Positions 9,942-25,088 of a stretch of 64,000 nt of DNA are shown piece after piece. A program made the position numbers and the translations under genes. The notes beneath the pieces are model-generated. The model did no database searches and was not told the origin of the DNA. It saw only the letters and a list, made by a program, of their open reading frames with translations. Source of the stretch: Pseudonocardia nigra. Its GTDB lineage: Bacteria > Actinomycetota > Actinomycetes > Mycobacteriales > Pseudonocardiaceae. The stretch lies in NCBI RefSeq assembly GCF_019396355.1, contig NZ_JAHKRK010000014.1:1-64000 (forward strand). Reading direction: 5' to 3'. Positions within the stretch are counted from its first letter, which is position 1, and each line of letters opens with the position of its first letter.

Positions 9942-9990
9942 GAGACCTCCGCGCGCATCGGGTAGGAGTGTCGGCCGGGCACACGCTAGA

Positions 9991-10012
9991 CTACCAGACG
10001 GCCGATTGGTAG
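9991..10012. promoter_or_regulatory. Palindromic operator, best copy of the island-wide motif
   Basis: The left half CTACCAGACGG (9991-10001) meets the right half CCGATTGGTAG (10002-10012). Each matches the ideal half-site CTACCAAACGG, or its complement CCGTTTGGTAG, at 10 of 11 positions. It lies between the divergent carboxyltransferase and biotin carboxylase genes, where a TetR dimer could control both. Similar sites occur at 14946, 20122, 24108 and, as a half-site, at 25079. Confidence 0.75.
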
Positions 10013-10072
10013 ACAGTGGGGGCAGCGGACGATGGACGCAAGGCCACCGGCCTGACCGAAGTGGAGCGGAAC

Positions 10073-11865
10073 GTGGAGCGTCACGCAATCGGGACCGTGC
10101 TGGTGGCCAACCGCGGCGAGATCGCGGTGCGCATCATCCGGTCCTGCCGGGAGCTGGGCCTCCGCACGGCCGCCGTGTACAGCGACGCCGACGCCGATGC
10201 GCTGCACGCCAGGCTCGCCGACGAGGCCCACCGGGTCGGCCCGGCGCCGGCCCGGCAGTCCTACCTGGACATCGACGCGCTGCTGGGTGCCGCCAAGGCC
10301 GCGGGCGCGGATGCCGTGCACCCCGGCTACGGGCTGCTGTCGGAGGACGCCGGGTTCGCCGCCGCGACGGTGGCCGCCGGGTTCAGGTTCGTCGGGCCTC
10401 CGGCGGAGGTCGTCGCCCGGATGGGCGACAAGGTCGCCGCACGGGCGGTGGCCACGGGGTGCGGCGTGCCGGTCGCCCCCGGCAGCGACGGGCCGGTCGA
10501 CCCGACCGACCCGGCGGGCGTGGCGGCAGTGGCGCAGCGGCTCGGCTGGCCGGTGGTGGTCAAGGCGTCCTTCGGTGGCGGTGGGCGCGGGATGCGCGTG
10601 GTGCACGACGCCGCCGGGCTCGCCGATGCGCTCACCGCGGCCGGCCGCGAGGCGCAGGCGGCGTTCGGCCGCGGCGAGGTGCACGTCGAGCGCTACCTGG
10701 AACGGCCGCGCCACGTCGAGGTCCAGGTGCTCGCCGACACCCACGGCACGTGGTCCACCTCGGCGACCGCGACTGCTCCGTGCAGCGCCGCCACCAGAAG
10801 CTGATCGAGGAGGCCCCGGCACCCGGGCTCGCCCCGCAGCTGCGTGCGGCACTGCGCGACGCCGCGCTGCGGGTCGCCCGCTCCGTCGGCTACGAGGGGG
10901 CGGGGACGGTCGAGTTCCTCGTGCTGCCGGCCACCGGCGAGTACTTCTTCCTGGAGATGAACACGCGGCTGCAGGTCGAGCACGGCGTCACCGAGATGGT
11001 CACCGGCGTCGACCTGGTCGCGGCACAGCTGCGGATCGCCGCCGGCGAGCCGCTGTCGTTCTCCGCCGACGACGTGCGGATCGACGGGCACGCCATCCAG
11101 GCCCGGATCGCGGCCGAGGACCCGTGGGAGGGGTTCCGACCGGCTCCCGGCAGCGTGCGCGAGCTCGCGCTCCCGCAGGGGCCGTGGTTGCGCAACGACA
11201 TGGGGATCGAGAGCGGCGACACCGTGGCCGCCGAATACGACTCGATGTTCGGCAAGGTGCTCGCTTGGGGGACCGACCGCGACGTCGCCCGGCGCCGGCT
11301 GATCGGAGCGCTCGACGAGCTCCGGGTGGTCGGCGTCCCGACCACCGCCCCGTACCTGCGAGAGGTCCTCGCCTCGGAGTCGTTCGCGGCCGGGACCCAC
11401 GACACCGGCTCGGTCGCGCGGGAGTGGCCGCCGGATCCGGCGCTGCGACCGGCCACGGCGGCGGCTTTCCCGGCTCCGGCCACGCCCGGCGTCCCGGTCC
11501 GCCGGGTGCGGATCGCCACCGACCGGGGGCCGGTCGAGGTTGCCGTGTACGGGCGGCCGCGGCCCGCGGGTGCGACCGGCACGGCCGCCGGTCGGCCGTC
11601 CCGCTCCCGCGCCGGGTCCGGGCCCGGCACGACCGGGCCGGGGGCGCCGCCGGTCGCGCCGATGGACGCCACCGTCGTCGCCGTCCCGGTGGCGGTCGGG
11701 CAGCCCGTCGCCGCGGGCGACGTGCTCGCGGTGCTCGAGGCCATGAAGATGGAGATCGAGGTGCGGTCGGACGCTGCCGGGACGGTGTCGGAGGTGCTGG
11801 TCTCCCCCGGTGACGCGATCGGCGCGGGCAGGCCGCTGGTCGTCCTGGCTCCGGACGAGGGCTGA
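10073..11865 (+). pseudogene. Acyl-CoA carboxylase alpha subunit (biotin carboxylase + BCCP), frameshifted
   Basis: ATP-dependent carboxylation of biotin and carriage of the carboxybiotin. The first frame has [34 protein letters not shown] and the ATP-grasp loop [14 protein letters not shown] is missing near 10750, and the next frame resumes [20 protein letters not shown], then FLEMNTRLQVEHGVTE. The BCCP domain ends the protein with the biotinylation motif EAMKMEIE. With one base restored it is 597 residues, a normal size. GTG 10073 is preferred because GGAG precedes it and the earlier in-frame GTG at 10016 nearly touches the operator. All catalytic motifs are intact, so a sequencing indel is plausible. 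Confidence 0.88.
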
Positions 11866-11898
11866 GGCGGTCTCAGTCAGCCGGACGGCGAGCCGCTC

Positions 11899-11976
11899 TC
11901 ATCGAGAATCTGTCGAACCGAAGCCGCCAGTCGAGGAATCGAGGATGTCCGCAAGTCGCTCCTCGCCACGCCTCAT
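11899..11976 (-). pseudogene. HEPN-domain toxin remnant (25 codons)
   Basis: An ATG at 11976, overlapping the MNT stop by ATGA, begins MRRGEERLADILDS, which resembles the first helix of HEPN (DUF86/HepT) proteins normally encoded right after an MNT gene. The frame then diverges to STGGFGSTDSR and stops at 11899. The remaining 100 or so residues, including the RxxxxH RNase motif, are absent. The start context and position make it a relic of a HepT-type gene rather than a random ORF. Confidence 0.55.
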
Positions 11977-12317
11977 AGCGCGACGGCCTCCCGCAGAACC
12001 CGCTCCCTGATCCGGACCTTCAGCCCGCCGACGGTAGCCACTTGCGTGAACACCCCCAGTAGGTCCTCGACGACCAGGGCGAAGCCCGCGAGATCGAGGT
12101 ATCCGTGACCCGGCTCCAGGTCGACCAGCAGGTCGAGGTCGCTCTCGGCGCCGGCCTGCCCACGAGCGACGGAACCGAACACGCGGACGTTGCGCACGCC
12201 GAACTGTCGAACGAGGCGCTGGATCTCTGGTCCATCGGCTCGGACCTCGGCGAGGCTGACCGCGCGGCGCGGTGCATCGATCAGCACAGTCGGCCTCCCC
12301 ATCCCGGTCGCAACCAT
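11973..12317 (-). CDS. Minimal nucleotidyltransferase (MNT/MntA-like antitoxin family)
   Basis: 114 residues with the pol-beta nucleotidyltransferase signature GSVARGQAGAESDLDLLVD: Gly48-Ser49 and the metal-binding Asp60 and Asp62. A C-terminal helix and strand follow (ALVVEDLLGVFTQ, VRIRERVLREAVAL). In HepT-MntA systems this protein AMPylates and silences the HEPN RNase. Here the partner is reduced to 25 codons, so the gene is probably an orphan. It sits at the 3' ends of the convergent biotin carboxylase and MBL genes, outside the metabolic operons. ATG 12302 is an alternative start. Confidence 0.82.
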   Translation of the reverse strand: MVATGMGRPTVLIDAPRRAVSLAEVRADGPEIQRLVRQFGVRNVRVFGSVARGQAGAESDLDLLVDLEPGHGYLDLAGFALVVEDLLGVFTQVATVGGLKVRIRERVLREAVAL

Positions 12318-12334
12318 TGACGGACCTGATCAGT

Positions 12335-13372
12335 CTACGCCCGGTAGTGCCGCACCCCGTCCACGTCCTCGCCGACCAGCCTGCCCTGTAAGGCGAGCAG
12401 GTCGAGGTGCGACTCGGTCTCCAGCACCGCGAGCATCCGGTGGAACGGGTCCAACTCGGCCAGCGTCCGGTCCCGGCGGGTCCAGGTGAGACCGCCTGCC
12501 ACACAGGCGGCGGTGTTCCGACCGGATCGGATGGCCCGCTCCGTGGCGCTCAGCCGGGCGTCGTGGTGTTCGAGCAGCTCGTCGATCCGGGCGTGCGCGC
12601 TCGCGATGACCCGCCCGTGGGCCGGGAGCAGTCGCGCGTCGGGCATGCCTCGGACCCGGCGCAGCGAGCCGAGGTAGTCCCGCAGCGGGTGCGGGGCGCG
12701 GACCGCCTCGAACCCGATCGACGGGGTGATGTGGGGCAGCACGTGGTCGCCTGCGAAGAGCAGCCCGCCCGAGGCGTCGTGGTAGACGAGGTGGCCGCGG
12801 GTGTGGCCCGGTGTCTCCACGGCCTGCAGGTCGCGGTCACCCGCGGGCAGCACGGCACCGTCGGCGAGCCAGTCGTCGGGCTCCTCCCAGATGTCGCGCG
12901 GCATGCCGTCGCGTCCGTCGTAGGCGGACAGCTGACGCACCAGCTCGTCGGCGCCGCAACGACGCAAGGCGGCCAGCTGCGGGTCGAGGGCGTGCGCCGG
13001 GCCTCCCGCGACGTGCAGCGAGTCCCGCTCGCCGATGCCGAGTGCCACCTCGGCGCCGTGCCCGCGGCGCCACTCGACCGCGAGGGTGTAGTGGTCCCGG
13101 TGCACGTGGGTGACCAGCACCCGACGCACGTCCGACGGCTTCCGGCCGAGCGCGGCCAGCCCCGCCGCCAGCAGCTCGTCGGCGCCGCTGCGGATCTGCC
13201 CGGCGTCGACGAGCAGGGTGCCGCCGTCGCGATCGAGGTCGAGGGCGTAGACGTTCACGGCCTTGAGCGCGTCGCCGGGCAGCGGCAACGGGATCCGGTG
13301 CACCCCGGGCGCCACCGCGTAGACGCCGGGCGTGCTCCAGAGCAGGTCCGGTTCGTCGGGGCGGACCCGCAT
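12335..13372 (-). CDS. MBL-fold metallo-hydrolase
   Basis: 345 residues of the metallo-beta-lactamase superfamily. The metal-binding HxHxDH motif is VTHVHRDHYTLAVEW; downstream ligands appear as VETPGHTRGHLVYH and LLFAGDHVLPHI. A C-terminal helical region (DELLEHHDARLSATERAI) resembles LACTB2-like hydrolases and thioesterases. The start overlaps the SDR stop by one base, so it is co-translated with the SDR and lies downstream of the TetR gene. Hydrolysis of a CoA or other thioester in the island's pathway is a guess from context. Confidence 0.88.
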   Translation of the reverse strand: MRVRPDEPDLLWSTPGVYAVAPGVHRIPLPLPGDALKAVNVYALDLDRDGGTLLVDAGQIRSGADELLAAGLAALGRKPSDVRRVLVTHVHRDHYTLAVEWRRGHGAEVALGIGERDSLHVAGGPAHALDPQLAALRRCGADELVRQLSAYDGRDGMPRDIWEEPDDWLADGAVLPAGDRDLQAVETPGHTRGHLVYHDASGGLLFAGDHVLPHITPSIGFEAVRAPHPLRDYLGSLRRVRGMPDARLLPAHGRVIASAHARIDELLEHHDARLSATERAIRSGRNTAACVAGGLTWTRRDRTLAELDPFHRMLAVLETESHLDLLALQGRLVGEDVDGVRHYRA

Positions 13373-14209
13373 CAGGACCCGCGATCTGCCGGTGCGGTGA
13401 CGATGCCGGCATCGGGCCCGCCGCCGTCGACCAGGACCCGCTGGCCGGTGACGTAGCCGGCGTCGGCCGATGCGAGGAAGGCGACGACGCCCGCGACGTC
13501 GTCGGGCCGCGCGACGCGCCCGAACGGATAGCCGGCGTCGAGCTCGGCGACGGTGGCACCGCCCGTGGTGGCGGCCACGAGCCGCTCGCCCATGTCGGTG
13601 GCGACGAGGCCGGGCGCCACGATGTTGACGTGCAGTCCGTGTGCCCGCTCCTCACGGGCGAGCGTGCGGGCGGCCGTTTCCAGGGCGGACTTCGCCATCG
13701 TGTAGGCCGCGCCGCCCGGCGGTGCGGTGTCGACGATCGCGCTCGAGACGACGATGACGTCGGCCGGCCCGCCCGGCCGCGCGCATCCCGGGCAGCAGGG
13801 CGCGGACCAGGGCCAGGGGACCCAGCACGTGCACCCGCAGCAGCCGCAGGTATTCGGCGTCGTCGGTGTCGGCGACGGCGGTGCCGCGGCCGGCCGTTCC
13901 CGCGTTGCTGACGAGCAGGTCGACCGGGCCGAGGTCGGCCTGGACCCGCTCGGGCAGCGCAGAGATCGACTCCAGGTCGTCCACGGGCGCGCAGTAGGCG
14001 CGCGCCCGGCCGCCTGCGGCCTCGATCGCCGCGACGACCTCGTCGGCGGCCGCGCCGTCGCGCCGGTAGTTCACCGCGACGGCAGCGCCGTCGGCGGCCA
14101 GCCGCAGCGCCACGGCGCGGCCGACCCCCCGGGAACCGCCGGTCACCAGCGCGGTGCGGCCGGCCAACGGCGCGGCGGTGCGATCGGGGGCGGCGTACGG
14201 CGCGGACAC
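13372..14209 (-). pseudogene. Short-chain dehydrogenase/reductase, frameshifted
   Basis: NAD(P)-dependent oxidoreductase. The first frame holds the Rossmann motif ALVTGGSRGVGRAVALRL and VDLLVSNAGTAGRG. Near 13770, within a GGCCGGCC-rich stretch, the frame slips by one extra base (or two missing), and the rest is read in another frame: VIVVSSAIVDTAPPGGAAYT, then MAKSALE with the catalytic Tyr and Lys (YTMAK), then HVNIVAPGLVATDMG and YVTGQRVLVDGG. All catalytic residues are present across the two frames. GTG 14209 is preceded by AGGAG. It is coupled to the MBL gene. An assembly error in the GC run is plausible. Confidence 0.83.
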
Positions 14210-14240
14210 GGGGCTCCTGTCGGTCGGATGCGGTGACGGG

Positions 14241-14945
14241 TCAGGGGGCACCCACCGCGGGGACGGCGGTGGCGCGCTCCCGGTGCGCGAGCGCGGTGTC
14301 GGAGGCGATGCCGCGGACGGCCATGTCGGCGAGTTGGGCACCGATGGTCTCGGGGCTGAAGCGGCCGCCGGGGCGGAACCACCGGTACACCCAGTTCGTC
14401 TGTCCGAGCACGGACAGCGCCGCCAGCCGGGGCTCCACGTCGGCCCGGACCAGCCCGTCGCGCTGTGCCTGCTCGATGAGGTCACGGAACACACCTTGAT
14501 AGGCGTGCTCGCTGCCGAGCACCTCCTTGCGCCGCTCCGCCGGCAGGGCCGCGAGCTCGTGCAGGAACACCGCGGTCGGGACCAGGTTGCGGCAGGTGTG
14601 CTCGACATGCCCGACGATCACTCCCTCGAGCCGCTCGAGCGGGTTGCCCGGGGCGTCCGCGCGCCGCCGGATCACGGCCAGGCCGTCCCGGTGCACGGCG
14701 CTGATCACCTCGAAGAGGAGATCCTCCTTCGACTGGATGTAGTAGTAGAGGCTCCCCTTGAGCATGCCGAGCCGGTCGGCGATGTCCTGTAGCGAAGCGC
14801 CGTCGTAGCCCTTCTCGTAGAACACCTGGGTGGCCACCTCGATCAGCTCCGCCCATCGCTCCTCGCGGGGCTTGCGCTCCCCGCCCGAGCGGCGTGCGCT
14901 CCGTCCCGCCGGCTGCCGCAACCTCGCCACGTCCTTCCGCTCCAC
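14241..14945 (-). CDS. TetR/AcrR-family regulator, candidate master repressor of the island
   Basis: 234 residues. The helix-turn-helix spans about 30-80: EERWAELIEVATQVFYEKGY, then ASLQDIADRLGMLKGSLYYY and IQSKEDLLFEV. The C-terminal helical domain resembles the KstR2-like TetR_C class, which often binds acyl-CoA ligands. It is the only local regulator between 2 and 26 kb. A palindrome related to the sites at four other island promoters lies directly upstream, so autoregulation and control of the whole island are likely (inference). The start could be GTG 14945, or GTG 14930, which has a better ribosome-binding site (GGAGCGGAAGG). Confidence 0.9.
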   Translation of the reverse strand: MERKDVARLRQPAGRSARRSGGERKPREERWAELIEVATQVFYEKGYDGASLQDIADRLGMLKGSLYYYIQSKEDLLFEVISAVHRDGLAVIRRRADAPGNPLERLEGVIVGHVEHTCRNLVPTAVFLHELAALPAERRKEVLGSEHAYQGVFRDLIEQAQRDGLVRADVEPRLAALSVLGQTNWVYRWFRPGGRFSPETIGAQLADMAVRGIASDTALAHRERATAVPAVGAP

Positions 14946-14977
14946 GAACCGAACGGTGGGAGTCTACCGTTTGGTAG
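14946..14977. promoter_or_regulatory. Operator-like dyad upstream of the TetR gene
   Basis: The right half CCGTTTGGTAG (14967-14977) matches the ideal half-site perfectly, and a left half GAACCGAACGG (14946-14956) matches at 8 of 11. The two are separated by 10 extra bases, one helical turn. A shorter dyad CTACC-GTTT-GGTAG (14964-14977) overlaps it. Its position just before the regulator gene suggests autoregulation. Confidence 0.6.
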
Positions 14978-14988
14978 GTCCGTCCCGG

Positions 14989-15750
14989 TCAGAGGCGGGT
15001 CGCCGCGTCGAGCCGCACGACCTCGCCGTTGAGCAGCTCGTTCTCCATGAACGACGCCACCAGGTGCGCGAAGTCGGCCGGCCGCCCGAGCCGTTTGGGG
15101 AACACGTGCAGGTCCATCAACGCGGCGCGGCGCTTCTCGTCGGCGCCGGCGAGCATCCCGGTGTCCATGATCCCTGGGCAGATCGTCATCACCCGGATGC
15201 CCCAGATCGCGAGGTCACGGGCCAGCGGCAGGGTCAGGGCCACGATCCCGCCCTTCGACGCCGCATACGCGGCCTGCCCGGTCTGACCTTCCAGCGCCGC
15301 GGCCGAGGCGACGTTCACGATCAGGCCGCGTTCGCCGTCGGGTCCCGGCTCGTTGCGGGCGATGGCGGCGACGGCGTGCCGCAGCACGTCGAACGTACCG
15401 ACGAGGTTGATCTCGACGGTGCGCCGGAAGACGTCGAGCGGGTGCAGCTCACCCTTCCGGGAGAGCACCCGGGTGGCCGGGCTGACGCCCGCTGCGTTGA
15501 CGCACACGTCGATCCGCCCGAAGTGCTCCGCGACGCGCGCGACGGCCTTCTCCACCTGCCCCTCGTCGGCGACGTCCATGGGCACGAAGAGCGCGGGCTC
15601 CCCCAGCTCGGCGGCGAACCGCTCACCGGCCGAGGACGGCAGGTCGAGGATCCCGACTCGGCCGCCGCGCTCGGCGAGCATCCGGGCCGTGCCGGCACCG
15701 AGCCCGGACGCGCCACCGGTGAAGAGCCCGACCGACTCGCCGATCCTCAC
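14989..15750 (-). CDS. SDR family oxidoreductase (3-hydroxyacyl-CoA dehydrogenase type 2-like)
   Basis: 253 residues. The cofactor loop is FTGGASGLGAGTARMLAERG, the acidic strand end GILDLPS favours NAD, VDVCVNAAGVSPA carries the NAG motif, and the catalytic Tyr-Lys is in QAAYAASKGGIVALTLPLAR. The layout resembles HSD10/FabG-like enzymes that oxidise 3-hydroxyacyl-CoAs. GTG 15750 overlaps the upstream SDR stop (GTGA), so the two SDRs form a coupled pair. It could supply the 3-hydroxyacyl-CoA oxidation step between hydratase and thiolase. Confidence 0.9.
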   Translation of the reverse strand: MRIGESVGLFTGGASGLGAGTARMLAERGGRVGILDLPSSAGERFAAELGEPALFVPMDVADEGQVEKAVARVAEHFGRIDVCVNAAGVSPATRVLSRKGELHPLDVFRRTVEINLVGTFDVLRHAVAAIARNEPGPDGERGLIVNVASAAALEGQTGQAAYAASKGGIVALTLPLARDLAIWGIRVMTICPGIMDTGMLAGADEKRRAALMDLHVFPKRLGRPADFAHLVASFMENELLNGEVVRLDAATRL

Positions 15751-16580
15751 TTGATCGCCGCGCCCGCGTCGACCGGCAGCGCGACCCCGGTGATGTAGCG
15801 GGCCTCGTCGCTGGACAGGAACAGCACCGCGTTGCTGATGTCGATCGACTCGACCCAGGGCACCGGCAGCGCGTTGAGCGACATGAAGCCCGGCATCGCC
15901 TTCTCCCGGGTGGGCTCGGGGTCGTCCGGCGCGAACATCCCCCAGGTGCCCGGATTCTGAATCATGTGGGTGTCCACGTTGGTCGGGTGCACGGTGTTGA
16001 CCCGGATGTGGTGCTGCGCCAACTCGTTGGCCATCGTGCGCATCAGGCCGACGACGGCGTGCTTGGTCGAGACGTAGTGCGCCACCTGCTGGATCCCCTT
16101 CAGGCCGCCGATTGAGCTGGTGAACACCATCGACCCGCCACCGCGACTGCGCAGGTGCGGAACCGCGGCCTTGGCGGTGTGCCAGACGCCGGTGAGGTTC
16201 ACGTCCAGCATCTCCTGCCACATGTCCTCGGTGATCTCCCAGGACATGCCGTAGGTCGCGATACCGGCGTTGGCCACCACGATGTCCAGCCCGCCCAGCT
16301 CGGCGACACCCTCGTCCAGCGCTGCCGACAGCGCTCCGGCGTCGCGCACGTCGGCCTTGCGGGCGACGATCCGCCGGTCGAGCTTCTCGACCTGAGCCAC
16401 CGTCTCGGCCAGGTCCTCCTCAGTGGCCAGCGGATACTTGTCGACCGTCGAGATCGGCCCGCACACGTCCACCGCGATGATGTCGGCGCCCTCCTCCGCG
16501 AGCCGCAGCGCATGGCTGCGGCCCTGCCCCCGGGCGGCCCCGGTGATGAATGCGACCTTGCCCGCCACGCGTCCGGCCAT
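15747..16580 (-). CDS. Mycofactocin-coupled SDR family oxidoreductase (carveol-dehydrogenase-like)
   Basis: 277 residues starting MAGRVAGKVAFITGAARGQG and RSHALRLAEEGADIIAVDVC. This N-terminal signature, a roughly 25-residue insertion after the acidic strand (SVDVCGPISTVDKYPLATEE-type region) and the late segment after HPTNVDTHMIQNPGTW are typical of the SDR subfamily with non-exchangeable nicotinamide that passes electrons to mycofactocin. Catalytic Tyr-Lys is in VAHYVSTKHAVVGLM. Known members oxidise carveol and other alcohols. Here it could oxidise the alcohol made by a P450. ATG 16580 is preceded by GGACGGAG. Confidence 0.85.
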   Translation of the reverse strand: MAGRVAGKVAFITGAARGQGRSHALRLAEEGADIIAVDVCGPISTVDKYPLATEEDLAETVAQVEKLDRRIVARKADVRDAGALSAALDEGVAELGGLDIVVANAGIATYGMSWEITEDMWQEMLDVNLTGVWHTAKAAVPHLRSRGGGSMVFTSSIGGLKGIQQVAHYVSTKHAVVGLMRTMANELAQHHIRVNTVHPTNVDTHMIQNPGTWGMFAPDDPEPTREKAMPGFMSLNALPVPWVESIDISNAVLFLSSDEARYITGVALPVDAGAAIK

Positions 16581-16866: not shown

Positions 16867-18438
16867 CTAGACGGATCGCTCGCGCTCGGCCCAGTACGGG
16901 TCGCGCAGCCGGCGTTTGAGGATCTTCCCGGTCGGCGCCTTGGGCAGGGCGTCGACGAACTCCACGGATCGTGGCTTCTGGTAGGACGCGAGGTGCTGCT
17001 TCGCCGTATCGATGATCTCGGACTCACTCGCGGTGCTCTCCGGCTTGAGCACGACGAACGCCTTGACGCTCTCGCCCCACTCGTCGTCGGGCACCCCGAT
17101 CACTGCGCACTCCAGCACCGCGGGGTGCTGATTGACCGCCTCCTCGACCTGCACGGAGTAGATGTTCTCGCCACCGGAGATGATCATGTCCTTGGCGCGG
17201 TCGACGATGAACACGTACGAGTCGGCGTCCCAGGTCGCGATGTCCCCGGTCCACATCCAACCGTCGCGGATCGTGGTGGCGGTGAGGTCGGGCCGGTTCC
17301 AGTAGCCGAGCATGTTGGCCTCGGACCGGACCACGATCTGCCCGGCGGTCTTCCCGTCCTTCGGCACCGGGACACCGTCGGGATCCACCACCCGGACGGT
17401 GGTGACGAAACCCTCTCGCCCGCAGGAGCGCAGCCGCTCCGGGTGCATCCCCCGCACGGCATCGGCGTGGTCCTCCTGGGACAGGAAGCACATCGTCGTG
17501 CCCTCGGTCTGCCCGTAGCCCTGGATCAAGGTGCAGGGGAACGCGTCGAGCGCCGCCTTCACCACGGTCGAGGGCATGGGACCGCCGCCGTACTGGACGT
17601 TGCGCAGGCTGGAGGTGTCGTAGCCGGAGAAGCCGGGCACCGCCATCATCCAGTTGAGCATCGTGGTGATGCCCAGGAACGCTGAGACGCGCTCGGCCTC
17701 GATGAGCTGCATCGCCGTCGTCGCCTCGAAGTTCATCAGGACGACGGGGCAGCCGTGGCGCAGGTAGTTCATCGAGAGCACGACCGGGATGTGGTACATC
17801 TGCCCGGTCAGCATGTAAACGTCGGTCGGCACGATCCGCTCGGCGACCGTCTGGTTGATCATGCCGAACGACACGCTGCGGTGGCTGTGCAGCGCGCCCT
17901 TGGACTCGCCGGTGGTGCCGCCAGTGTAGAGGATGAAGAACGGGTCGTCGTCCCCGACGTGCGAGGACCACTCCGGCTCGGCTGCCGAGCTGCGAGCGAG
18001 CAGGTCCTCGTAGCTGCCGTCGCCCCCGGTCCCGTACTGCAGCCAGTGCGGCACGTCGACGGCGGCCTGCAGCTGCTTGGCCGTGTCCAGCCACTCGTCG
18101 GAGGCCAGGACGGCGCGCGGCGCGGCGTCGGTGACGATCCGGCCGAGCTCGGGCACGCCGAGCCGCCAGTTCAAGGGCTGGGCGATCAGCCCGGCCCTCC
18201 CCGCGGCGAAGTACAACTCCTGGTACTCGATGGAGTTCTTGGCCAGGATCGCCACCCGGTCGCCCTGCTGGAGGCCCAGCCCCCCGTCGCCGCTGCCGCG
18301 CAGCCCGTTGGCCAGCCGGCGCACGCGTTCGTCGAGCGCGCGCCAGGAGATGCGCCGCCCGCTCGGCGCGTCCACGATCGCGTCCCGGTCCGGGGTGAGC
18401 GCCGCCCACTTCGCCGGGACGGTCCCGATGTTGACCAT
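16867..18438 (-). CDS. AMP-dependent acyl-CoA synthetase (FadD-like)
   Basis: 523-residue ANL-superfamily ligase that activates a carboxylic acid as acyl-AMP and then acyl-CoA. Motifs: the P-loop YTGGTTGESKG (171-181), GYGQTEGTTMCFLSQ, the hinge region WMWTGDIATWDADSYVFIVD with RAKDMIISGGENIYSVQVEE, and PTGKILKR (502-509) with the adenylation Lys505. It follows the SnoaL-like gene by 9 nt as the last gene of the P450 operon that begins at 20102. It would bring the free acid formed after oxidation into the CoA pathway. Confidence 0.93.
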   Translation of the reverse strand: MVNIGTVPAKWAALTPDRDAIVDAPSGRRISWRALDERVRRLANGLRGSGDGGLGLQQGDRVAILAKNSIEYQELYFAAGRAGLIAQPLNWRLGVPELGRIVTDAAPRAVLASDEWLDTAKQLQAAVDVPHWLQYGTGGDGSYEDLLARSSAAEPEWSSHVGDDDPFFILYTGGTTGESKGALHSHRSVSFGMINQTVAERIVPTDVYMLTGQMYHIPVVLSMNYLRHGCPVVLMNFEATTAMQLIEAERVSAFLGITTMLNWMMAVPGFSGYDTSSLRNVQYGGGPMPSTVVKAALDAFPCTLIQGYGQTEGTTMCFLSQEDHADAVRGMHPERLRSCGREGFVTTVRVVDPDGVPVPKDGKTAGQIVVRSEANMLGYWNRPDLTATTIRDGWMWTGDIATWDADSYVFIVDRAKDMIISGGENIYSVQVEEAVNQHPAVLECAVIGVPDDEWGESVKAFVVLKPESTASESEIIDTAKQHLASYQKPRSVEFVDALPKAPTGKILKRRLRDPYWAERERSV

Positions 18439-18447
18439 CTCGGCCTC

Positions 18448-18858
18448 TCAGTAGGGCAGGTCGAGGTAGATGTGCCGGGTGCGGATGCGCCACCCGTCGT
18501 CCTCGCGGACCAGCTCGTCGCGGTACCAGCCGCTGGACAGCACCTTCACCGCGCCGTTCTCGATCGAGAGCAGGGTGAGGTTGCTGGTGGTGGAGGCCTC
18601 GTCGGCGGTCTCCTTGGTGATCAGCAGGTTGCTGATGTTGTGCCGGCGCTGGTCGGTCTGTGACTGCAGCGAGTCGGCGTGCAGCTTGCGGATCGCCTCG
18701 CGGCCCTCGAACGGCCCGATGGTGTCGCCGTCCCGGCCGATCTGCAGCGTCATCGTCGAGTTCTCGGTGAACTGGGCGGCGATGAGGTCCACGTCGTTCT
18801 CGTCGTACCCCCAGGCGGCCCGGCCCAGGACGTTCTCGATCTCCGAGCGTGCGGACAT
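18448..18858 (-). CDS. SnoaL/NTF2-fold protein (nuclear transport factor 2-like)
   Basis: 136 residues: IENVLGRAAWGYDENDVDLI, AAQFTENSTMTLQIG, then SNLLITKETADEASTTSNL and SGWYRDELVREDDGWRIRTR, with a YLDLPY end. This is the one-domain NTF2 fold of SnoaL_4 and dioxygenase beta-subunit-like proteins. It lies between a P450 and an acyl-CoA synthetase, 11 nt after the P450 stop. Actinobacterial terpenoid and steroid clusters often hold such proteins; none of the visible residues fixes a reaction. Confidence 0.82.
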   Translation of the reverse strand: MSARSEIENVLGRAAWGYDENDVDLIAAQFTENSTMTLQIGRDGDTIGPFEGREAIRKLHADSLQSQTDQRRHNISNLLITKETADEASTTSNLTLLSIENGAVKVLSSGWYRDELVREDDGWRIRTRHIYLDLPY

Positions 18859-18869
18859 GGCGGTCTCCT

Positions 18870-20102
18870 CTATGCGGCAGGGGTGAAGGTGAGGCGCAGC
18901 GACGCCGGGGCGCGGGTGAACACGCCGTGCTCGGGCGGCGGCGCGCCGTCGGCGAAGCGGATGTCGTGCATGGCGTCGAGCAGCTGCGCGATCCCGGTGT
19001 CCAGCTCGGTCTTGGCGAGCATCGCGCCGACACAGAAGTGGCGCCCGAGGCAGAACGCGGTGTGGTTGGCCCCGGCGGTGTAGGCCCGGCCTCGGTCGAG
19101 GTCGGTGCGGAAGATGTCGAACTCGTCGGGGTTCGCGTACTTGACGGGATCCCGGTTGGCGGCGCCGATCAGGCAGGTGACCGTCTTGCCCGCCTCGACG
19201 ACGCCACCGGAGAGCTCGACGTCCTCGGCGGGCTGCCGCATGATCATGTGCACCGGTGGCGAGTAGCGCAGCGTCTCGGCGAACGCCGCCGAGACCAGGC
19301 TGTGGTCCTCGCGGACGGCCTGCAGCTGCTCGGGGTGCTGCACGAGGTTGCTCATCACGCTCGCGATGGCCTTGTCGGTGGTCTCCCCGCCCGCTGTGAG
19401 CAGCAGGCTGCAGAACGCCTTGATCTCCTCGTCCGTCATCCGGACGCCGTCGATCTCGGCGCTGCACAGCGTCGAGAGCAGGTCGTCGCCCGGGTTCTCC
19501 CGGCGCGCCTGGATGATCGGGATCATGTAGTCCTCGAACTCGGCCTTGGTGCGCAGGCCGTCGGCGGCGGCCCGCTCGTCCCCGGACAGGTTCGACAGGA
19601 ACGCCATGATCGAGGTGTACCAACGGTGGAAGTGCAGGTGGTCGGCCTTGGGCAGCCCGAGCATGTCCACGATCACGTTGATCGGGAACCGGGTGGCGTA
19701 CTGGCCCACCAGGTCGACCTGGCCGTCGGCCCGGAAGGCGTCGATCAGCGCGCGGGAGTTCTGTTCGATGACCGGCACGAACTTGGTCATCAGGTCCCGC
19801 CCCCGGAAGGCGGGTGCCACCAGGTTGCGGTGCGTGGAGTGCTCGCGGCCCTCCATCTGCAGGATCGTGCGGCCGTGCACCGGCTCGAGCTGCCAGTGGT
19901 AGTTGCGACTGGTGAACACCGGGTCCTTGAACGCGCGCTCGACGTCGACGTACCGGCTGATGATGTAGCTCTGCATCGGCTCGAACCAGATGAGCGGGTG
20001 CTCGTCCCGCATCACGCGGTACGCGGAGTACGGATCGGCCGCGAACTCGGGCGACAGGATGTTCGGTGCCGCGGATGCGGTGGGAGCGGACACGGGAGAC
20101 AC
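18870..20102 (-). CDS. Cytochrome P450 (second)
   Basis: 410 residues. I-helix motif AGGETTD (237-243), with Gly in place of the usual first helix residue; ExxR as ETLR (276-279); haem loop FCLGRHFCVG (350-359) with Cys357. There is no membrane anchor. It heads an operon P450-SnoaL-FadD and is preceded at 20122-20143 by a strong copy of the island palindrome. No ferredoxin is adjacent; it may share the 3Fe-4S ferredoxin at 4453. It is clearly a different subfamily from the P450 at 4664, so two separate oxidations or substrates are likely. Confidence 0.94.
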   Translation of the reverse strand: MSPVSAPTASAAPNILSPEFAADPYSAYRVMRDEHPLIWFEPMQSYIISRYVDVERAFKDPVFTSRNYHWQLEPVHGRTILQMEGREHSTHRNLVAPAFRGRDLMTKFVPVIEQNSRALIDAFRADGQVDLVGQYATRFPINVIVDMLGLPKADHLHFHRWYTSIMAFLSNLSGDERAAADGLRTKAEFEDYMIPIIQARRENPGDDLLSTLCSAEIDGVRMTDEEIKAFCSLLLTAGGETTDKAIASVMSNLVQHPEQLQAVREDHSLVSAAFAETLRYSPPVHMIMRQPAEDVELSGGVVEAGKTVTCLIGAANRDPVKYANPDEFDIFRTDLDRGRAYTAGANHTAFCLGRHFCVGAMLAKTELDTGIAQLLDAMHDIRFADGAPPPEHGVFTRAPASLRLTFTPAA

Positions 20103-20121
20103 CTCCGGGCGTCAATCTTCG

Positions 20122-20143
20122 TTATCTAACGGCCGTTTGGTAG
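20122..20143. promoter_or_regulatory. Palindromic operator upstream of the second P450
   Basis: The left half TTATCTAACGG (20122-20132) joins a perfect right half CCGTTTGGTAG (20133-20143), giving a fully symmetric core AACGGCCGTT. It lies 20 nt upstream of the P450 start codon and could overlap its promoter. Confidence 0.7.
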
Positions 20144-20213
20144 CGGTGAGACTAGCATCACACCCCTGTCCCGACAAGCGCCGCGACCAGGTCGAAACCA
20201 TCGAGTGGGCGGG

Positions 20214-21212
20214 TCAGCGGGCCGGCGTGCGTGCCGCCTGCGCCAGGCCCTCGATGGTCGCGAGCGGACCGTCGAGGTCCCCGGGCTCGGCACCCGGGGT
20301 GAGGACCACGGACAGGTCGACCCCGGCCGCATTCAGATCGCGGGCCCGCCGGGCGACCGTGGCGCCGTCCCCGACCGCGCAGAGCCGGTGCACGGCCTCG
20401 TCGGGCACGAGGGCGAGCGCGCCGCGACGGTCGCCGTCGTGCCACCGCCGGGTCGCGCGATCCAGTTCGGCGAACGCCCCGGCGAAGGAGGCGCGATGGG
20501 TGGGCACCATGGCGTACTGCAGGACCAACCGGCGCAACCGCTGCGTCGCCTCGTCGACGCGCTCGCCGGCGTAGCCCCAGAACGACGCCATCGCCCACAC
20601 GGTGCCCGGTGGGCGGCCCGCCTCCCGCTCGCCCTCGCGGACCAGCGCCAGCTTCGCCGCCACCTCGTCCGGCGGGCACCAGGTGATGAAGACGCCGTCC
20701 GCGATCCGCCCCGCGAGCCGCAGCATCCCCGGGTTCATGGCGGCGAGCACCACCGGCGGCGGGGTCGGCGGCAACAGCCCGGCCCGGAAGCCACGCACGC
20801 GCGGGCGATCCACGCTGACCCGCTCCCCCGCCCATGCCTGCCGGAGCGCGGACACGTAGCCCTCGGCCGTGGCCAGCGGCGCGTCGAACTCCCGGCCGTG
20901 CCAGTCCCGGACGATCGTCGGGCTGCTCGCGCCGAGGCCGGCCAGCACGCGGCCCGGCGCGGCCGAGGCCAGCGTCGCGAAGCCCATCGCGGTGAGCGCG
21001 GCCGAACGCGGGTAGATCCCGGCGATGCCGCTGCCCACCCGGATCCGCGACGTGCCCGCCGCGATCAGCCCGAGCATCGCGAACACCTCGGGACCGGCCA
21101 CCTCGCCAACCCACACGGAGTCGTAGCCGTGCTCCTCGGCGGCACGGGCGAGCCGCAGGTAGTCCGGCGCGGTGAGCCCGTCGTCCACGGGCATGGTCAC
21201 ACCCAGCTTCAC
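20214..21212 (-). CDS. LLM-class flavin/F420-dependent oxidoreductase
   Basis: 332 residues: KLGVTMPVDDGLTAPDYLRL, ARAAEEHGYDSVWVGEVAGP, IAAGTSRIRVGSGIAGIYPR, and MNPGMLRLAGRIADGVFITW. The GSGI-x-x-IYPR loop is common in F420-dependent LLM enzymes, so a hydride-transfer role is more likely than oxygenation (inference). GTG 21212 overlaps the upstream SnoaL stop as GTGA. It is the last gene of the operon flavoprotein-LLM-SnoaL-LLM. Confidence 0.87.
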   Translation of the reverse strand: MKLGVTMPVDDGLTAPDYLRLARAAEEHGYDSVWVGEVAGPEVFAMLGLIAAGTSRIRVGSGIAGIYPRSAALTAMGFATLASAAPGRVLAGLGASSPTIVRDWHGREFDAPLATAEGYVSALRQAWAGERVSVDRPRVRGFRAGLLPPTPPPVVLAAMNPGMLRLAGRIADGVFITWCPPDEVAAKLALVREGEREAGRPPGTVWAMASFWGYAGERVDEATQRLRRLVLQYAMVPTHRASFAGAFAELDRATRRWHDGDRRGALALVPDEAVHRLCAVGDGATVARRARDLNAAGVDLSVVLTPGAEPGDLDGPLATIEGLAQAARTPAR

Positions 21213-21586
21213 CGGCGCGCCACCATCCGGGCCACCGCGCGGGTGTCGTACCAGCTGCTCAGCCGCACGATCACCGCGTCGCGCAGGTCGAACACGTCGA
21301 GGGCGTCGAACTCGACGCCGCGGCCGTCGCGCAGCGTCCCCTCGAACCGGATCTCGGTGACGAGCGTGTCGCCCGCCTCGATCCACCGGGTCACCCGGTC
21401 GTCGTGGCTCGCATAGGCCGCCAGCACGTCCGGGAAGTGCGCGAGCACGGCGGCGCGGCCGATCCGCGGCGGGGCGCCGACCGCGTGCAGCTCGCCGTCG
21501 GGGTGCCACAGCGGCTCCAGGTCGGCGAACCCGTCGGAGTTGATCGCCGCGAAGTACCCCTCGACGGTGTCGCGGTTGCGGCGCAT
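21209..21586 (-). CDS. SnoaL-like protein
   Basis: 125 residues: TVEGYFAAINSDGFADLEPL, WHPDGELHAVG, then TRWIEAGDTLVTEIRFEGTL and VFDLRDAVIVRLSSWYDTRA. This is a compact NTF2 fold of the ketosteroid-isomerase-like type. It sits between two LLM oxidoreductases with one-base and four-base overlaps, repeating the SnoaL-LLM pairing seen at 5898-7618. Confidence 0.82.
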   Translation of the reverse strand: MRRNRDTVEGYFAAINSDGFADLEPLWHPDGELHAVGAPPRIGRAAVLAHFPDVLAAYASHDDRVTRWIEAGDTLVTEIRFEGTLRDGRGVEFDALDVFDLRDAVIVRLSSWYDTRAVARMVARR

Positions 21587-22707
21587 CAGTCCTCCAGGAG
21601 CGTGCGCAGTTGCGACATCGCCGAGAACGACCAGCGCGCGAGCGAGGGATCGCCGAACGCGGTGATGTTCCACATCACCAGGTGCGCCAGCCCGGCCTCG
21701 CGGTACTCGGCGAGCTCCTCGGCCACCTGCTCCGGGGTGCCGCAGAACGCGTAGTGCCGCACCACCTGGGGCGGGATCGCGTCGATGATCCGCAGTGATT
21801 CGGCTCGCTCGATCGCGGTGGGGATGAAGTCGTGGAAACCCGACCCGTGCGACCCGCCGGCGAGCGGTGGCTCGACCCCGAGGTCGCGGAACACCTGCGA
21901 GGGCAGCAGCACGCACAACGCGCGCACCAGCGGCGCTTCGGTGAGCCGCGCGACGGTCTCCTCGTCGGGGCCCATCAGGATGTAGCCGAGCATGCCCGGG
22001 GTGATCCCGGCCGGGTCCCGGCCCGCGTCCTGGGCCGACTGCTCGATCGTGGTGAGGGACTTGCGGTAGTCGGGCGCGGTCATCTTGGTGGGCAGCCAGC
22101 CGTCGGCCTTCGTCCCGGTGAGCCGGAGCATCCGCGGGCCGTGCGCGGCCGTCCAGATCTCCGGTGGGACGCCGCCGTACGGGGAGAGCCCCAGCACGGC
22201 GCGGTCGAGGGAGTGGAACCGGCCGTCGAAGTCGACGGGGCCGTCGGCGGCCCAGAGCAGCCGCATGATGTCGATGCCCTCGCTCAGCCGGGCCACGGGC
22301 GTGTCGAACGGCATGCCGTACGGCGTCACGTTGAGCTTCTCACCGCTGCCGAGACCGATGATCGCCCGGCCCTTCGTGACGTGGTCCAGCGTCAGCGCGG
22401 CCTGCGCGGCCATCGCGGGGTGGCGCCGGATGAGGTCGGTGACGACGACCCCGACCTTGATCCGCTCGGTCTGCGCACCGACCACCCCCATCATGATCAG
22501 CGGGTCGAAGTAGGTGTGCGGATTGGGCTGGACGCCCGCCAGCGGCGTCAGGTCCGGCGTCCACATCGTGTCGGCATGCCAGCCCATGAGGTGGTCGGGC
22601 CACCAGACGGCGTCGAAGCCCTCGGCCTCGCTGCGCTGCGCGAACCGCACCGCGGTGTCGGCCGGGGGCATGATCTGGCCGGGGACGCCGAGCTCGAGCC
22701 GGGCCAT
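21586..22707 (-). CDS. LLM-class F420-dependent oxidoreductase
   Basis: 373 residues: RLELGVPGQIMPPADTAVRF, EGFDAVWWPDHLMGW, AQTERIKVGVVVTDLIRRHP and GRAIIGLGSGEKLNVTPYG. The DHLMGW and GSGEKLN-PYG motifs match phthiodiolone-ketoreductase/methylene-H4MPT-reductase-like members, which use reduced F420. ATG 22707 overlaps the flavoprotein stop by one base. It may reduce a keto or enone group on the substrate; which one is unknown. Confidence 0.88.
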   Translation of the reverse strand: MARLELGVPGQIMPPADTAVRFAQRSEAEGFDAVWWPDHLMGWHADTMWTPDLTPLAGVQPNPHTYFDPLIMMGVVGAQTERIKVGVVVTDLIRRHPAMAAQAALTLDHVTKGRAIIGLGSGEKLNVTPYGMPFDTPVARLSEGIDIMRLLWAADGPVDFDGRFHSLDRAVLGLSPYGGVPPEIWTAAHGPRMLRLTGTKADGWLPTKMTAPDYRKSLTTIEQSAQDAGRDPAGITPGMLGYILMGPDEETVARLTEAPLVRALCVLLPSQVFRDLGVEPPLAGGSHGSGFHDFIPTAIERAESLRIIDAIPPQVVRHYAFCGTPEQVAEELAEYREAGLAHLVMWNITAFGDPSLARWSFSAMSQLRTLLED

Positions 22708-24095
22708 CAGTACCGCCACCCGTCGCCGAAGGTGGCCAGTCGCCGCCCCAGGTAGTCCTCGACGCAGGTCAGCGCGGCGCGGGCGGCCCGGTCGGTGCCG
22801 ATCCCGCGGCTGCGGAAGGTCTCGCTGGCGAAGTACAGGCCCTCGACGTTCGGGGCCCGCCAGTGCGGCCGATACCTGCCGACCAGGCCGGGCATCTGGA
22901 TCACCCCGAACGACGGCTCGAACACCAGGTGCCTGCGCCGCCAGATCGGCTCGGCGAATCCCGGCCACATCGTCTCGATGTCGCGTTCGAACGCGAGGAA
23001 CGTGTCGCGCAGGTACTGCTGGTCCCGTCCCTTCGCGCCGGGGACGACCGCGCCCATCACGTGCAGGTGGGTGCCCGGCGGGGAGCAGGAGGGGTCCATC
23101 GCGGACTGGTCGAACATGAACCCCGAACAGCTCGTGCTCGGCGTCGAGGTCCACGTGGACAGCTCGCGCGGGTCGTACTGCGCGACCGGCTCTTCGGTGG
23201 CGAGGTAGAGCCCCAGCCACGCGATCCGGAACCGGTCCTGGGCCAGGAAGTCGATCTGGGCGGTGTACCACTCGGGCAGCACGTGGCGCGGCACCACGTG
23301 GAGTACGTGCCACACCGGCAGGGTCGAGATCACGCACGGCGCCTCGAGGATCTCCTCCTCGAAGAACTCGTTGGGCATGATCTTCGGCTGCCGGCCGATC
23401 GCGACGCCCACGACCTCGCCGTTCTCCACCACCACCCGCTCCACGCTGGTGCCCAGCCGCAGCTCGCCACCGTGGGCCCTGATCGCGTCGGACAGGTCGG
23501 CCCACATCCCGTCCCAGCCCTGGCCCGGCCAGAACGAGTAGGCGGCGGTCCCCCGCTCCTCGAAGTGCATCTTGCGCACGTAGAGGTTGTCGCTCGCGGA
23601 GTGGTCGTACCAGTTGTCGGTCATGCACTCGAGCACGGAGATGAACTCGAAGAGGTCGATCACGCCCTGGTCGTGGGTGTGCTGGTGGATCCACTCCCGC
23701 AACGACCGGTCGTCCCAGTCGTCGAGCTCGGAGTACGGGGTGTCGACCAGCGCCCTGACGACCTTCTTGAGCTCGGACTTGTCGGTGTAGCGGTCCCGGA
23801 TCGAGCCCCAGGCACCCTTCGCGTTGTCCCAGATCGGCATCTCGCGGCTGACCTCGCCGTGCACGAGCTCCTTGCCGACGTGCTCGAACACCTTGGTGAT
23901 GCCGGACCCACCGTCCTCGACCAGGTGCCCGCCGAGGTTGACCGTGAACCCCTCGTCGGGCACCGCCATCGCCCGCCCACCGAGGTGGGGGCTGCGGTCG
24001 AGCACCACGACCCGCTTGCCCTCCCTCGCCAGCAATGCGCCGGCGGTGAGACCGGCCGCGCCCGCACCGATCACCACGACGTCGTAGCTCGGCAT
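22707..24095 (-). CDS. CrtI/phytoene-desaturase-like FAD-dependent oxidoreductase
   Basis: 462 residues with the dinucleotide fold at the N-terminus, MPSYDVVVIGAGAAGLTAGA, then LLAREGKRVVVLDRSPHLGG and RAMAVPDEGFTVNLGGH. The C-terminal FAD-binding part is VEGLYFASETFRSRGIGTDR. This arrangement is that of the NAD(P)/FAD amine oxidase, CrtI and all-trans-retinol saturase superfamily. It is the first gene of a four-gene operon whose promoter carries an island palindrome (24108). A dehydrogenation or isomerisation of a terpenoid-like substrate would fit, but the substrate is not determinable. Confidence 0.87.
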   Translation of the reverse strand: MPSYDVVVIGAGAAGLTAGALLAREGKRVVVLDRSPHLGGRAMAVPDEGFTVNLGGHLVEDGGSGITKVFEHVGKELVHGEVSREMPIWDNAKGAWGSIRDRYTDKSELKKVVRALVDTPYSELDDWDDRSLREWIHQHTHDQGVIDLFEFISVLECMTDNWYDHSASDNLYVRKMHFEERGTAAYSFWPGQGWDGMWADLSDAIRAHGGELRLGTSVERVVVENGEVVGVAIGRQPKIMPNEFFEEEILEAPCVISTLPVWHVLHVVPRHVLPEWYTAQIDFLAQDRFRIAWLGLYLATEEPVAQYDPRELSTWTSTPSTSCSGFMFDQSAMDPSCSPPGTHLHVMGAVVPGAKGRDQQYLRDTFLAFERDIETMWPGFAEPIWRRRHLVFEPSFGVIQMPGLVGRYRPHWRAPNVEGLYFASETFRSRGIGTDRAARAALTCVEDYLGRRLATFGDGWRY

Positions 24096-24107
24096 GCCAC
24101 CCTCTCC

Positions 24108-24126
24108 CTACCAAACGACTGTTTTA
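24108..24126. promoter_or_regulatory. Operator-like site upstream of the CrtI-like flavoprotein gene
   Basis: The left half CTACCAAACGA (24108-24118) matches the ideal half-site at 10 of 11 positions. The right side, CTGTTTTA, keeps only the central GTTT, so the inner core AAAC-GACT-GTTT is symmetric but the outer right arm is not. It lies 13 nt upstream of the gene start. Confidence 0.55.
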
Positions 24127-24150
24127 CGCTCCCACGGCCCGAGCCGGCCG

Positions 24151-24573
24151 TCAACCGGGGACGACGACCGTCGCCGTCCCCGAGAGTGCGCGGACCGCGG
24201 TGGCAACGCCAGGCCGGAACGCGTCGAGCCACACCTCGCAGTCGGCCAGCAACTCCCCGTCCGACTCCCGGACCGCGGACACCCGACCACCGGCGATCGC
24301 ACGGTCGCCCGCGAACACGGTGGCGGCGAACCGCATCGCCATCGCCCGGATCGCGTCGTCGGAGCCGGCCCACGCGATCAGCACGTTCTGCACGTAACCC
24401 AGGTTCGACGGGCCCTGGTTGACCGCCCGGTCACCCAGTCCGACCGCCCGCACGGCGTCCGGACCGAGGTGGATCGGGTTCGGGTCGTGCAGCAGCGCCG
24501 CCATCAGCTTCATCTTCTCCGGATCGACGGCCTCGACCACCCACTCCGGGAGCGCGTCGCCCACCTGCGTCAC
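24151..24573 (-). CDS. MaoC-like hydratase, C-terminal hot-dog subunit
   Basis: 140 residues with the hydratase-2 motif: AALLHDPNPIHLGPDAVRAV, where D-x-N-P-I-H holds the catalytic Asp and His, then NQGPSNLGYVQNVLIAWAG. This half carries the active site. It is coupled by GTGA to the partner subunit just upstream, which lacks the motif. Together they should form a heteromeric enoyl-CoA hydratase, the arrangement known from ChsH1-ChsH2 in steroid side-chain degradation. The island thus has both a crotonase and a MaoC hydratase. Confidence 0.87.
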   Translation of the reverse strand: MTQVGDALPEWVVEAVDPEKMKLMAALLHDPNPIHLGPDAVRAVGLGDRAVNQGPSNLGYVQNVLIAWAGSDDAIRAMAMRFAATVFAGDRAIAGGRVSAVRESDGELLADCEVWLDAFRPGVATAVRALSGTATVVVPG

Positions 24574-25019
24574 CGTTGCCTCCGCGGAAAGACGAACGAC
24601 GTGCGCACCCGCGCGTCCACTCGGCCGTCGGCGCCCACGAGCTCGATCAGCATCGTCGCGATGTCGAACGCCCCCGTGCGCGCGCCGTCCTTGCGAACGA
24701 CGTCGGCCACCTCGGCGCGGATCTCGTACTCGGCGCCGATCCGCAGCGGGCGGTCGAGGACCATCGACCACTCGCCCAGCATCGGCCCGTCCGCCGACGT
24801 GGCGTGGAACAGCGAGAACAGCGCGTCAAGGTCGATCCCGACGCCACCCTGCGCCGCCACGAAGACCATCAGCGGGTGCGCGGAACCGTCCGGCGCCGGG
24901 GCGGATGCGCCGATCGCGTCCCGCAGCATCCGGTCGACCACCGCCTCCAGCCGCATCCGGCTCCCGGGGAAGCGATGCCCCACCGTTTCCGCGACCTGCT
25001 CCTCGGCCACCGATCCCAT
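24570..25019 (-). CDS. MaoC-like hydratase, N-terminal (FAS1-like dehydratase) subunit
   Basis: 149 residues: RMRLEAVVDRMLRDAIGASA, HPLMVFVAAQGGVGIDLDAL, FSLFHATSADGPMLGEWSM and IRAEVADVVRKDGARTGAF. This is the MaoC_dehydrat_N hot-dog half without the D-x-N-P-x-H active site. It pairs with the next gene. It is transcribed divergently from the broken acyl-CoA synthetase at 25103 across a short promoter region containing an operator half-site. Confidence 0.82.
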   Translation of the reverse strand: MGSVAEEQVAETVGHRFPGSRMRLEAVVDRMLRDAIGASAPAPDGSAHPLMVFVAAQGGVGIDLDALFSLFHATSADGPMLGEWSMVLDRPLRIGAEYEIRAEVADVVRKDGARTGAFDIATMLIELVGADGRVDARVRTSFVFPRRQR

Positions 25020-25071
25020 CGTCGGGCCACCTCCTGCACTCCTTGTCCACCGTCGACCGCCGCTGCTAGTT

Positions 25072-25088
25072 TGTCAAACGATTGGTAG
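25072..25088. promoter_or_regulatory. Operator half-site in the MaoC / synthetase divergent promoter
   Basis: CGATTGGTAG (25079-25088) repeats ten bases of the right half of the 9991-10012 operator. The opposite arm (TTGTCAAA) is degenerate, leaving a small symmetric core CAA-x-CG-x-TTG. It lies about 15 nt upstream of the synthetase ATG. Confidence 0.45.

Follow-up and report, generated by a model that had tools for sequence, protein, structure and literature searches.

A half-site at three dyad lengths and a putative TetR-family repressor in a P450/acyl-CoA island of Pseudonocardia nigra

Genes and candidate operators of the island

The stretch analyzed here (bases 1-64000 of one contig, hereafter the window) belongs to the draft genome of the soil actinobacterium Pseudonocardia nigra (8,494,240 bases, 601 contigs). 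It carries a catabolic island in which cytochrome P450 genes are joined with genes of acyl-coenzyme A (acyl-CoA) metabolism. A TetR-family gene, tetR (14241-14945, minus strand; TetR_N and TetR_C_24 domains), lies within it and encodes the proposed repressor of the island units. Copies of a short half-site occur at five promoters, including that of tetR. Very likely, the TetR protein acts through this half-site as a local repressor of the catabolic island and of its own gene, in the manner of PfmR, AibR and KstR2; an acyl-CoA probably releases it.

The five candidate operators, A to E, were rechecked in the sequence and are present where a preliminary description of this DNA had placed them. 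At operator A (9991-10012), a complete 22-bp dyad, CTACCAGACGGCCGATTGGTAG, separates the divergent genes for an acyl-CoA carboxylase carboxyltransferase (CT, minus strand) and a biotin carboxylase (BC, plus strand). Its halves, CTACCAGACGG and CCGATTGGTAG, show 10 of 11 matches each. Operator B (14964-14977, minus strand) precedes tetR in the 14-bp form CTACCAAACGGTAG. It includes a perfect half (14967-14977) whose 22-bp partner is absent, the dyad CTACCGTTTGGTAG being limited to 14 bp, and it overlaps a -10-like TAGACT (14961-14966, minus strand). Operator C (20122-20143, minus strand) combines a perfect right half with a degenerate left half, TTATCTAACGG (8 of 11). It lies just downstream of the -10-like TAGTCT (20149-20154) of the P450 operon, itself 17 bp from a -35-like TTGTCG (20172-20177), both recognized by eye. 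Operator D (24108-24129, plus strand) is located before the operon of a flavin adenine dinucleotide (FAD)-dependent oxidoreductase (minus strand); its strong half covers 24108-24117, with 10 of 11 matches over 24108-24118. Operator E (25071-25088, minus strand; CTACCAATCG) has 9 of 11 matches at 25078-25088 and a weak 18-bp partner, and separates the MaoC genes (minus strand) from an acyl-CoA ligase-like gene (plus strand). Only A is a full 22-bp dyad in the window. The preliminary description had announced one palindrome at five promoters: the five sites stand, the single palindrome does not. A and E sit between divergent genes, so the units served may outnumber the five sites.

CT (8388-9968) opens a leftward operon and is accompanied on the minus strand by an enoyl-CoA hydratase (7618-8391, right edge approximate), a SnoaL-like protein (6836-7618, in two stretches), a luciferase-like monooxygenase (LLM; 5898-6839) and a first cytochrome P450, P450a (4664-5911), with vitamin D3 hydroxylase and PikC among its best PDB matches. 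The biotin carboxylase/biotin carrier gene (10073-11865, plus strand) leaves operator A in the divergent direction. Downstream of tetR lie a metallo-beta-lactamase-fold hydrolase (12335-13372, minus strand) and a short-chain dehydrogenase/reductase (SDR; 13372-14212, minus strand). Two further SDRs are found at 14989-16580 (minus strand). Of these, the upstream SDR (15747-16580) belongs to the mycofactocin-coupled kind, matching TIGR03971 with 410.5 bits for a cut-off of 300. Next come an acyl-CoA ligase with an AMP-binding domain (16867-18438, minus strand) and a second P450, P450b (18870-20102, minus strand), the first gene behind operator C. Two LLM oxidoreductases and another SnoaL-like protein occupy 20214-22707 (minus strand, inner edges approximate); the best NCBIfam matches of this LLM pair are F420-dependent, below cut-off. 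The FAD-dependent oxidoreductase (22707-24095, minus strand) is the first gene behind operator D. It is neighbored by a MaoC-like dehydratase (24151-24771, minus strand) and a gene labelled MaoC2 that lacks a Pfam match of its own (24570-25019, minus strand). Behind operator E, the acyl-CoA ligase-like gene, with a partial AMP-binding match, runs into DUF2071 (25103-27250, plus strand).

The reading frame changes at about 10736-10804 in the biotin carboxylase gene and at about 13652-13698 in the SDR gene downstream of tetR. The carboxylase of another genome (G271) aligns in one frame. These breaks may reflect draft-assembly errors or decay. The gene content suggests a chemistry of hydroxylation, alcohol oxidation, CoA activation and carboxylation, because a mycofactocin-coupled SDR, P450s, CoA ligases and an acyl-CoA carboxylase are present. 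NCBIfam, PDB and literature searches for the substrate yielded classes only and no named compound. The mycofactocin-coupled SDR and the F420-type LLM oxidoreductases would fall within one proposed regulon.

Distribution of the motif in the window and the genome

A 10-bp half-site matrix was built from 53 half-sites at four promoters in 16 other genomes. These were 53 of 55 promoter picks, the two with 9 of 11 matches (P450b in G037, FAD-oxidoreductase in G271) being dropped; one further genome (G221) was excluded from training as a near-duplicate of another (G203). Since the training half-sites were selected near conserved gene starts by likeness to CTACCRNNCGR, the matrix is independent of the window and not of the consensus given in the preliminary description. 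In the window it returns six half-sites of at least 14 bits, which are exactly the five sites (A contributing two). The next match scores 11.6 bits and Markov shuffles (n=10) average 0.3. An iterated low-threshold matrix search had drifted into GC-rich noise, after which the matrix was fixed on aligned promoters.

Simple patterns give a similar picture in their strict forms. The 8.49 Mb genome has two exact copies of the 11-mer CTACCAAACGG, both in the window (reversed control 0). With up to two mismatches, the window holds 16 matches for a shuffle mean of 6.5, and none of 100 shuffles reaches 16. Five of the 25 one-mismatch matches in the genome fall in the window, which represents 0.75% of it. 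CTACCAWWCG is found six times in the genome (reversed control 1), five of these being the five sites; the concentration in the window corresponds to a binomial probability of 1.4e-10 for a pattern chosen after the sites were seen. The sixth match, CTACCATTCG, is on another contig (C563, L068), outside the island. Dyad lengths from 11 to 40 yielded no partner for it, and an open reading frame (ORF) of 164 amino acids without Pfam match starts 34 bp downstream. It may be a stray target. As this is the one CTACCAWWCG outside the island and has no dyad partner, the regulon looks local. The density check suggested in the preliminary description, carried out as whole-genome patterns and as a matrix scan of the window, came out in favor of the strict forms and left the one-mismatch 11-mer at background.

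Conservation across orthologous loci

Relatives of the TetR protein with at least 65% identity are present in 18 of 297 genomes of the family, including its own; the best identity then drops to 49%. Island genes accompany tetR in the 17 other genomes, although their content varies and some contigs are short. A best half-site with 10 or 11 of 11 matches is found near tetR in 17 of 17 genomes, at the CT promoter in 13 of the 13 with a carboxyltransferase match, at P450b in 13 of 14 and at the FAD-oxidoreductase in 14 of 15, paralogs included; these counts, given without a chance control, comprise the P. nigra genome and leave G221 aside. One FAD-oxidoreductase pick (G212) belongs to a 43% paralog, the sole one in that stretch.

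Among named genomes, 32 loci with at least 64% identity, drawn from the best 80 of 105 relatives, were kept as orthologs (the next relative is at 46%). They are distributed between Pseudonocardia, Actinomycetospora, Prauserella, Rhodococcus, Nocardia and Amycolatopsis, together with metagenome-assembled genomes of Nocardiopsis, Streptosporangiales and one unplaced Pseudonocardiaceae bacterium. These loci (582,824 bases) contain 111 half-sites of at least 14 bits, 102 of them distinct, for 4 in the Markov control, and each of the 32 carries at least one. None of the 111 lies inside conserved coding regions, which make up 51% of the bases. Many are located at tetR, carboxylase, P450 and FAD-oxidoreductase promoters, and the tetR promoter has one in 17 of the 32 loci. 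Several Actinomycetospora exhibit a weaker half-site there, CCACCATACG. In P. autotrophica and near kin (L070, L073, L074, L077) the sites attributed to the FAD-oxidoreductase are probably at a paralog. Operator E is kept in two species: P. parietis (L079) has the identical sequence at the corresponding position, and P. lacus (L083) a nearly identical one. P. parietis (L084) also carries a second TetR ortholog copy, whose assigned site is at an SDR gene.

The 14-bp dyad of the tetR promoter recurs in other Pseudonocardia; in two of them (L071, L145) a second site, CTACCAATCGATTGATTGGTAC, is found upstream of it. The strict 14-mer CTACCAAACGRYCG is present in 15 of the 18 TetR-bearing genomes versus 14 of the 279 others (Fisher p 8e-15, uncorrected for kinship). 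A permissive 22-bp pattern with one mismatch was discarded: it matched 102 of 297 genomes, gave many reversed-control matches and did not separate the TetR-bearing genomes.

More distant TetR relatives were examined at 48 loci (29-46% identity, proteobacteria included). Half-sites of at least 13 bits are 21 times denser between 300 bp before tetR and 30 bp inside it (12 in 15,840 bases, at 9 of the 48 loci) than elsewhere (29 in 807,804). Croceicoccus and two other genomes (L119, L136, L144) have clean 22- and 18-bp dyads ahead of their distant tetR genes. Because of this enrichment the motif appears tied to this kind of TetR, though most distant loci lack it.

Dyad geometry and promoter layout

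Partner halves of at least 10 bits occur for the 102 distinct half-sites at two lengths only, 18 bp (14) and 22 bp (30). When partners of at least 3 bits are considered, lengths 14, 18 and 22 are represented by 10, 45 and 46 half-sites, whereas random flanks predict 0.5, 1.4 and 0.2, and across the remaining 27 lengths between 11 and 40 none of the 102 has a partner. As each dyad can contribute both of its halves, there are fewer dyads than these figures, and kinship among the ortholog loci makes the counts non-independent. Partners at 14, 18 and 22 bp rule out a single-palindrome model. The 22-bp palindrome of the preliminary description is therefore better described as one half-site with a partner at one of three dyad lengths.

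The dyad length at one promoter can vary from species to species. Of the 12 Pseudonocardia loci in which a site was assigned to tetR, eight have the 14-bp form and four a weak 18-bp form, while the site of Actinomycetospora straminea is a strong 18-bp form. The CT/BC promoter dyad is of 22 bp in most loci and of 18 bp in Rhodococcus and Dino_bin20. The 14-bp unit CTACC-N4-GGTAG is possibly the site of one dimer and each longer form a pair of overlapping dimer sites. If so, one TetR could read one half-site in three registers, the longer forms holding two dimers that overlap 4 or 8 bp apart, and a switch of register between species at one promoter would set repression strength. We regard this extension as conceivable rather than probable.

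By eye, TAGACT or TAGTCT overlaps the operator end at the tetR and CT/BC promoters. The Actinomycetospora P450b promoter carries TTGACC or TTGACG with TGATGCTAGTCT, also by eye, comparable to the boxes that precede operator C in the window.

The TetR protein and the proposed regulation

The TetR protein matches PF00440 (54.8 bits, cut-off 24) and PF17932 (112 bits, cut-off 26.4). Among 16 NCBIfam TetR equivalog families, including ScbR, FadR, FasR and MftR, none is matched at cut-off (best 64.5 bits for a cut-off of 150). An AlphaFold2 model from the window protein and 29 related rows has a mean predicted local distance difference test score (pLDDT) of 87.5 and is all-helical, like solved TetR proteins. 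The nearest solved structures include PfmR (3vpr, top Foldseek match, 28% identity; second to 3him in another structure comparison), KstR2 and AibR with isovaleryl-CoA. The protein is thus near PfmR/AibR/KstR2-like acyl-CoA regulators in sequence and in modelled fold.

We infer binding, repression and an acyl-CoA ligand as follows. TetR dimers would bind the half-site CTACCAAACG together with a stronger or weaker partner half that completes a dyad of 14, 18 or 22 bp. The five bound places would overlap or abut core promoters of the island transcription units, which include the two P450s, the LLM oxidoreductases, the mycofactocin-coupled SDR, the CoA ligases, the acyl-CoA carboxylase and the enoyl-CoA hydratase. 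An acyl-CoA made by the island's own ligase would probably release TetR, so that the pathway would be on when its substrate arrives. The TetR-controlled regulon proposed in the preliminary description gains support at the sequence level, since the motif lies in the regulator's own promoter, co-occurs with the ortholog, is present in all 32 ortholog loci and is found beside 9 of 48 diverged relatives.

Several observations weigh against this interpretation. Operator D has no good partner half and those of B, C and E are weak, which is unusual for a simple dimer site. With one mismatch, the 11-mer gives 25 matches genome-wide for 34 in the reversed control, so this looser form is not enriched. 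In 15 of the 32 ortholog loci the tetR promoter has no assigned half-site of at least 14 bits, and 39 of the 48 diverged loci have none of at least 13 bits near the gene. The strict 14-mer is missing from 3 of the 18 TetR-bearing genomes, and its presence in 14 of the 279 others is close to the reversed-control rate (14 of 297); one of those 14 (G258) is an incomplete genome from the genus holding most other such islands. Finally, TetR proteins without a named function lie just as close among the solved sequences and folds (3dcf heads one listing, and 3him the structure comparison).

Among other explanations, TetR might bind these sites as an activator, or respond to a ligand other than acyl-CoA, such as the free substrate. 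Some TetR proteins do activate (FasR is called a TetR-like activator in a published abstract) and some relatives bind other ligands, for instance cyclic di-AMP (c-di-AMP) in the available account of DarR. However, the sites overlap or follow -10-like boxes, a repressor position, the fold neighbor AibR binds isovaleryl-CoA and the island encodes CoA ligases. This alternative is unlikely. Still less probable is that the sites are read by a regulator encoded elsewhere, such as another TetR homolog, and that the island TetR has other targets. The genome contains six matches to the TetR query at E <= 1e-20, hence five others (one listed at 32% identity), and related TetR genes partly have similar sites beside them, which makes crosstalk possible. 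Nevertheless, the motif is present in this tetR's own promoter, is nearly confined to the island in the genome and follows the ortholog from genome to genome. A conserved promoter element serving a special sigma factor would agree with the lack of half-sites in conserved coding sequence (0 of 111) and with the TAG end that, by eye, often starts a -10-like TAGACT or TAGTCT, but is highly improbable given that the motif can point either way with respect to the gene, has its halves at fixed dyad lengths, accompanies some diverged tetR genes and, at P450b, lies downstream of separate -35/-10-like boxes.

Under repression by the island TetR, a testable regulon (regulator, operators and target units) is now assigned to an island conserved in Pseudonocardia, Actinomycetospora and scattered other actinobacteria, which joins P450s, F420-type LLM oxidoreductases, a mycofactocin-coupled dehydrogenase and an acyl-CoA carboxylase. 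The regulator offers a handle on the substrate, because any acyl-CoA that lifts TetR off the DNA would identify the pathway. A structural question, how TetR dimers stack on DNA, arises from the three dyad lengths.

Surroundings of the island

At the left edge of the island (334-2143), a group II intron maturase/reverse transcriptase and an integrase-core protein are encoded, which suggests that mobile DNA adjoins it. In the region 33867-39685, Pfam identifies a periplasmic binding protein (37387-38649) and a regulator of IclR type (38888-39685), beside ORFs that by eye resemble parts of an ATP-binding cassette (ABC) transporter. The matrix scan of the window found no half-site of at least 14 bits in this region; it is therefore probably a separate system.

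Comparison with known systems

PfmR binds as two dimers, like QacR. AibR, a TetR regulator solved with isovaleryl-CoA, is likewise among the fold neighbors of the island TetR. The 16-bp core described for BkaR, the repressor of a mycobacterial branched-chain keto-acid cluster, is GTTA(N)T(N4)A(N)TAAC and differs from the motif reported here.

KstR2, the mycobacterial cholesterol-catabolism repressor, was rejected as the regulator: its core AnCAAGnnCTTGnT, with up to two mismatches, has 21 matches in the window and none on any of the five sites. The pattern is over-represented there (5.75 in shuffles, none of 100 reaching 21), away from the five sites. The preliminary description had seen no match to KstR motifs; this is true of the KstR2 core, but published KstR2 sites contain CTACCAAGC in the part of the source available (PMC3068626).

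Among the literature matches listed, judged by titles and the beginnings of abstracts, no published account of this regulon was found, and the papers listed for a search with the motif letters were unrelated by title. We thus found no earlier report of this regulon with its sign in three lengths. Local TetR repressors of acyl-CoA catabolism are, as a kind, already known.

A close parallel is PfmR (TTHB023), a TetR repressor of Thermus thermophilus. The site predicted for it in the available part of the source, TACCGACCGNTNGGTN (PMC7022988), resembles the 18-bp form, of which the Actinomycetospora tetR sites TACCGACCGTATGGTG are examples. Operators B and C match this pattern with three and two mismatches; by eye, some ortholog sites fit it better. 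As the window has 30 matches for 23.7 expected by chance, its own sites do not stand out. PfmR sites are found at fatty-acid genes. The island here is a different one and has three dyad lengths. PaaR (TTHA0973), also from T. thermophilus, has the consensus AACnAACGTTnGTT in the portion of its description available (PMC6651687); phenylacetyl-CoA is named as the effector in the title of another, cited paper. This published consensus, the only PaaR sequence compared, shares the AACG core of the half-site and is 14 bp long, without the CTACC ends.

Spacings similar to those of the shorter forms are known from DarR and MbdR, whose operators appear in the excerpts consulted as ATACT(N)4AGTAT and ATACN10GTAT (PMC10636190, PMC4424350). 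The TAC-6-GTA spacing of DarR is like the 14-bp form and the TAC-10-GTA spacing of MbdR like the 18-bp form. According to the same excerpts, DarR binds as overlapping dimers (PMC10636190, PMC4424350). Lys63-Gly64 of the island TetR, invariant in 12 aligned orthologs, resemble in an unaligned comparison Lys44-Gly45 of DarR, which contact TxC in the available account. As far as these published descriptions extend, DarR and MbdR have one spacing each, whereas the sites described here occur at three.

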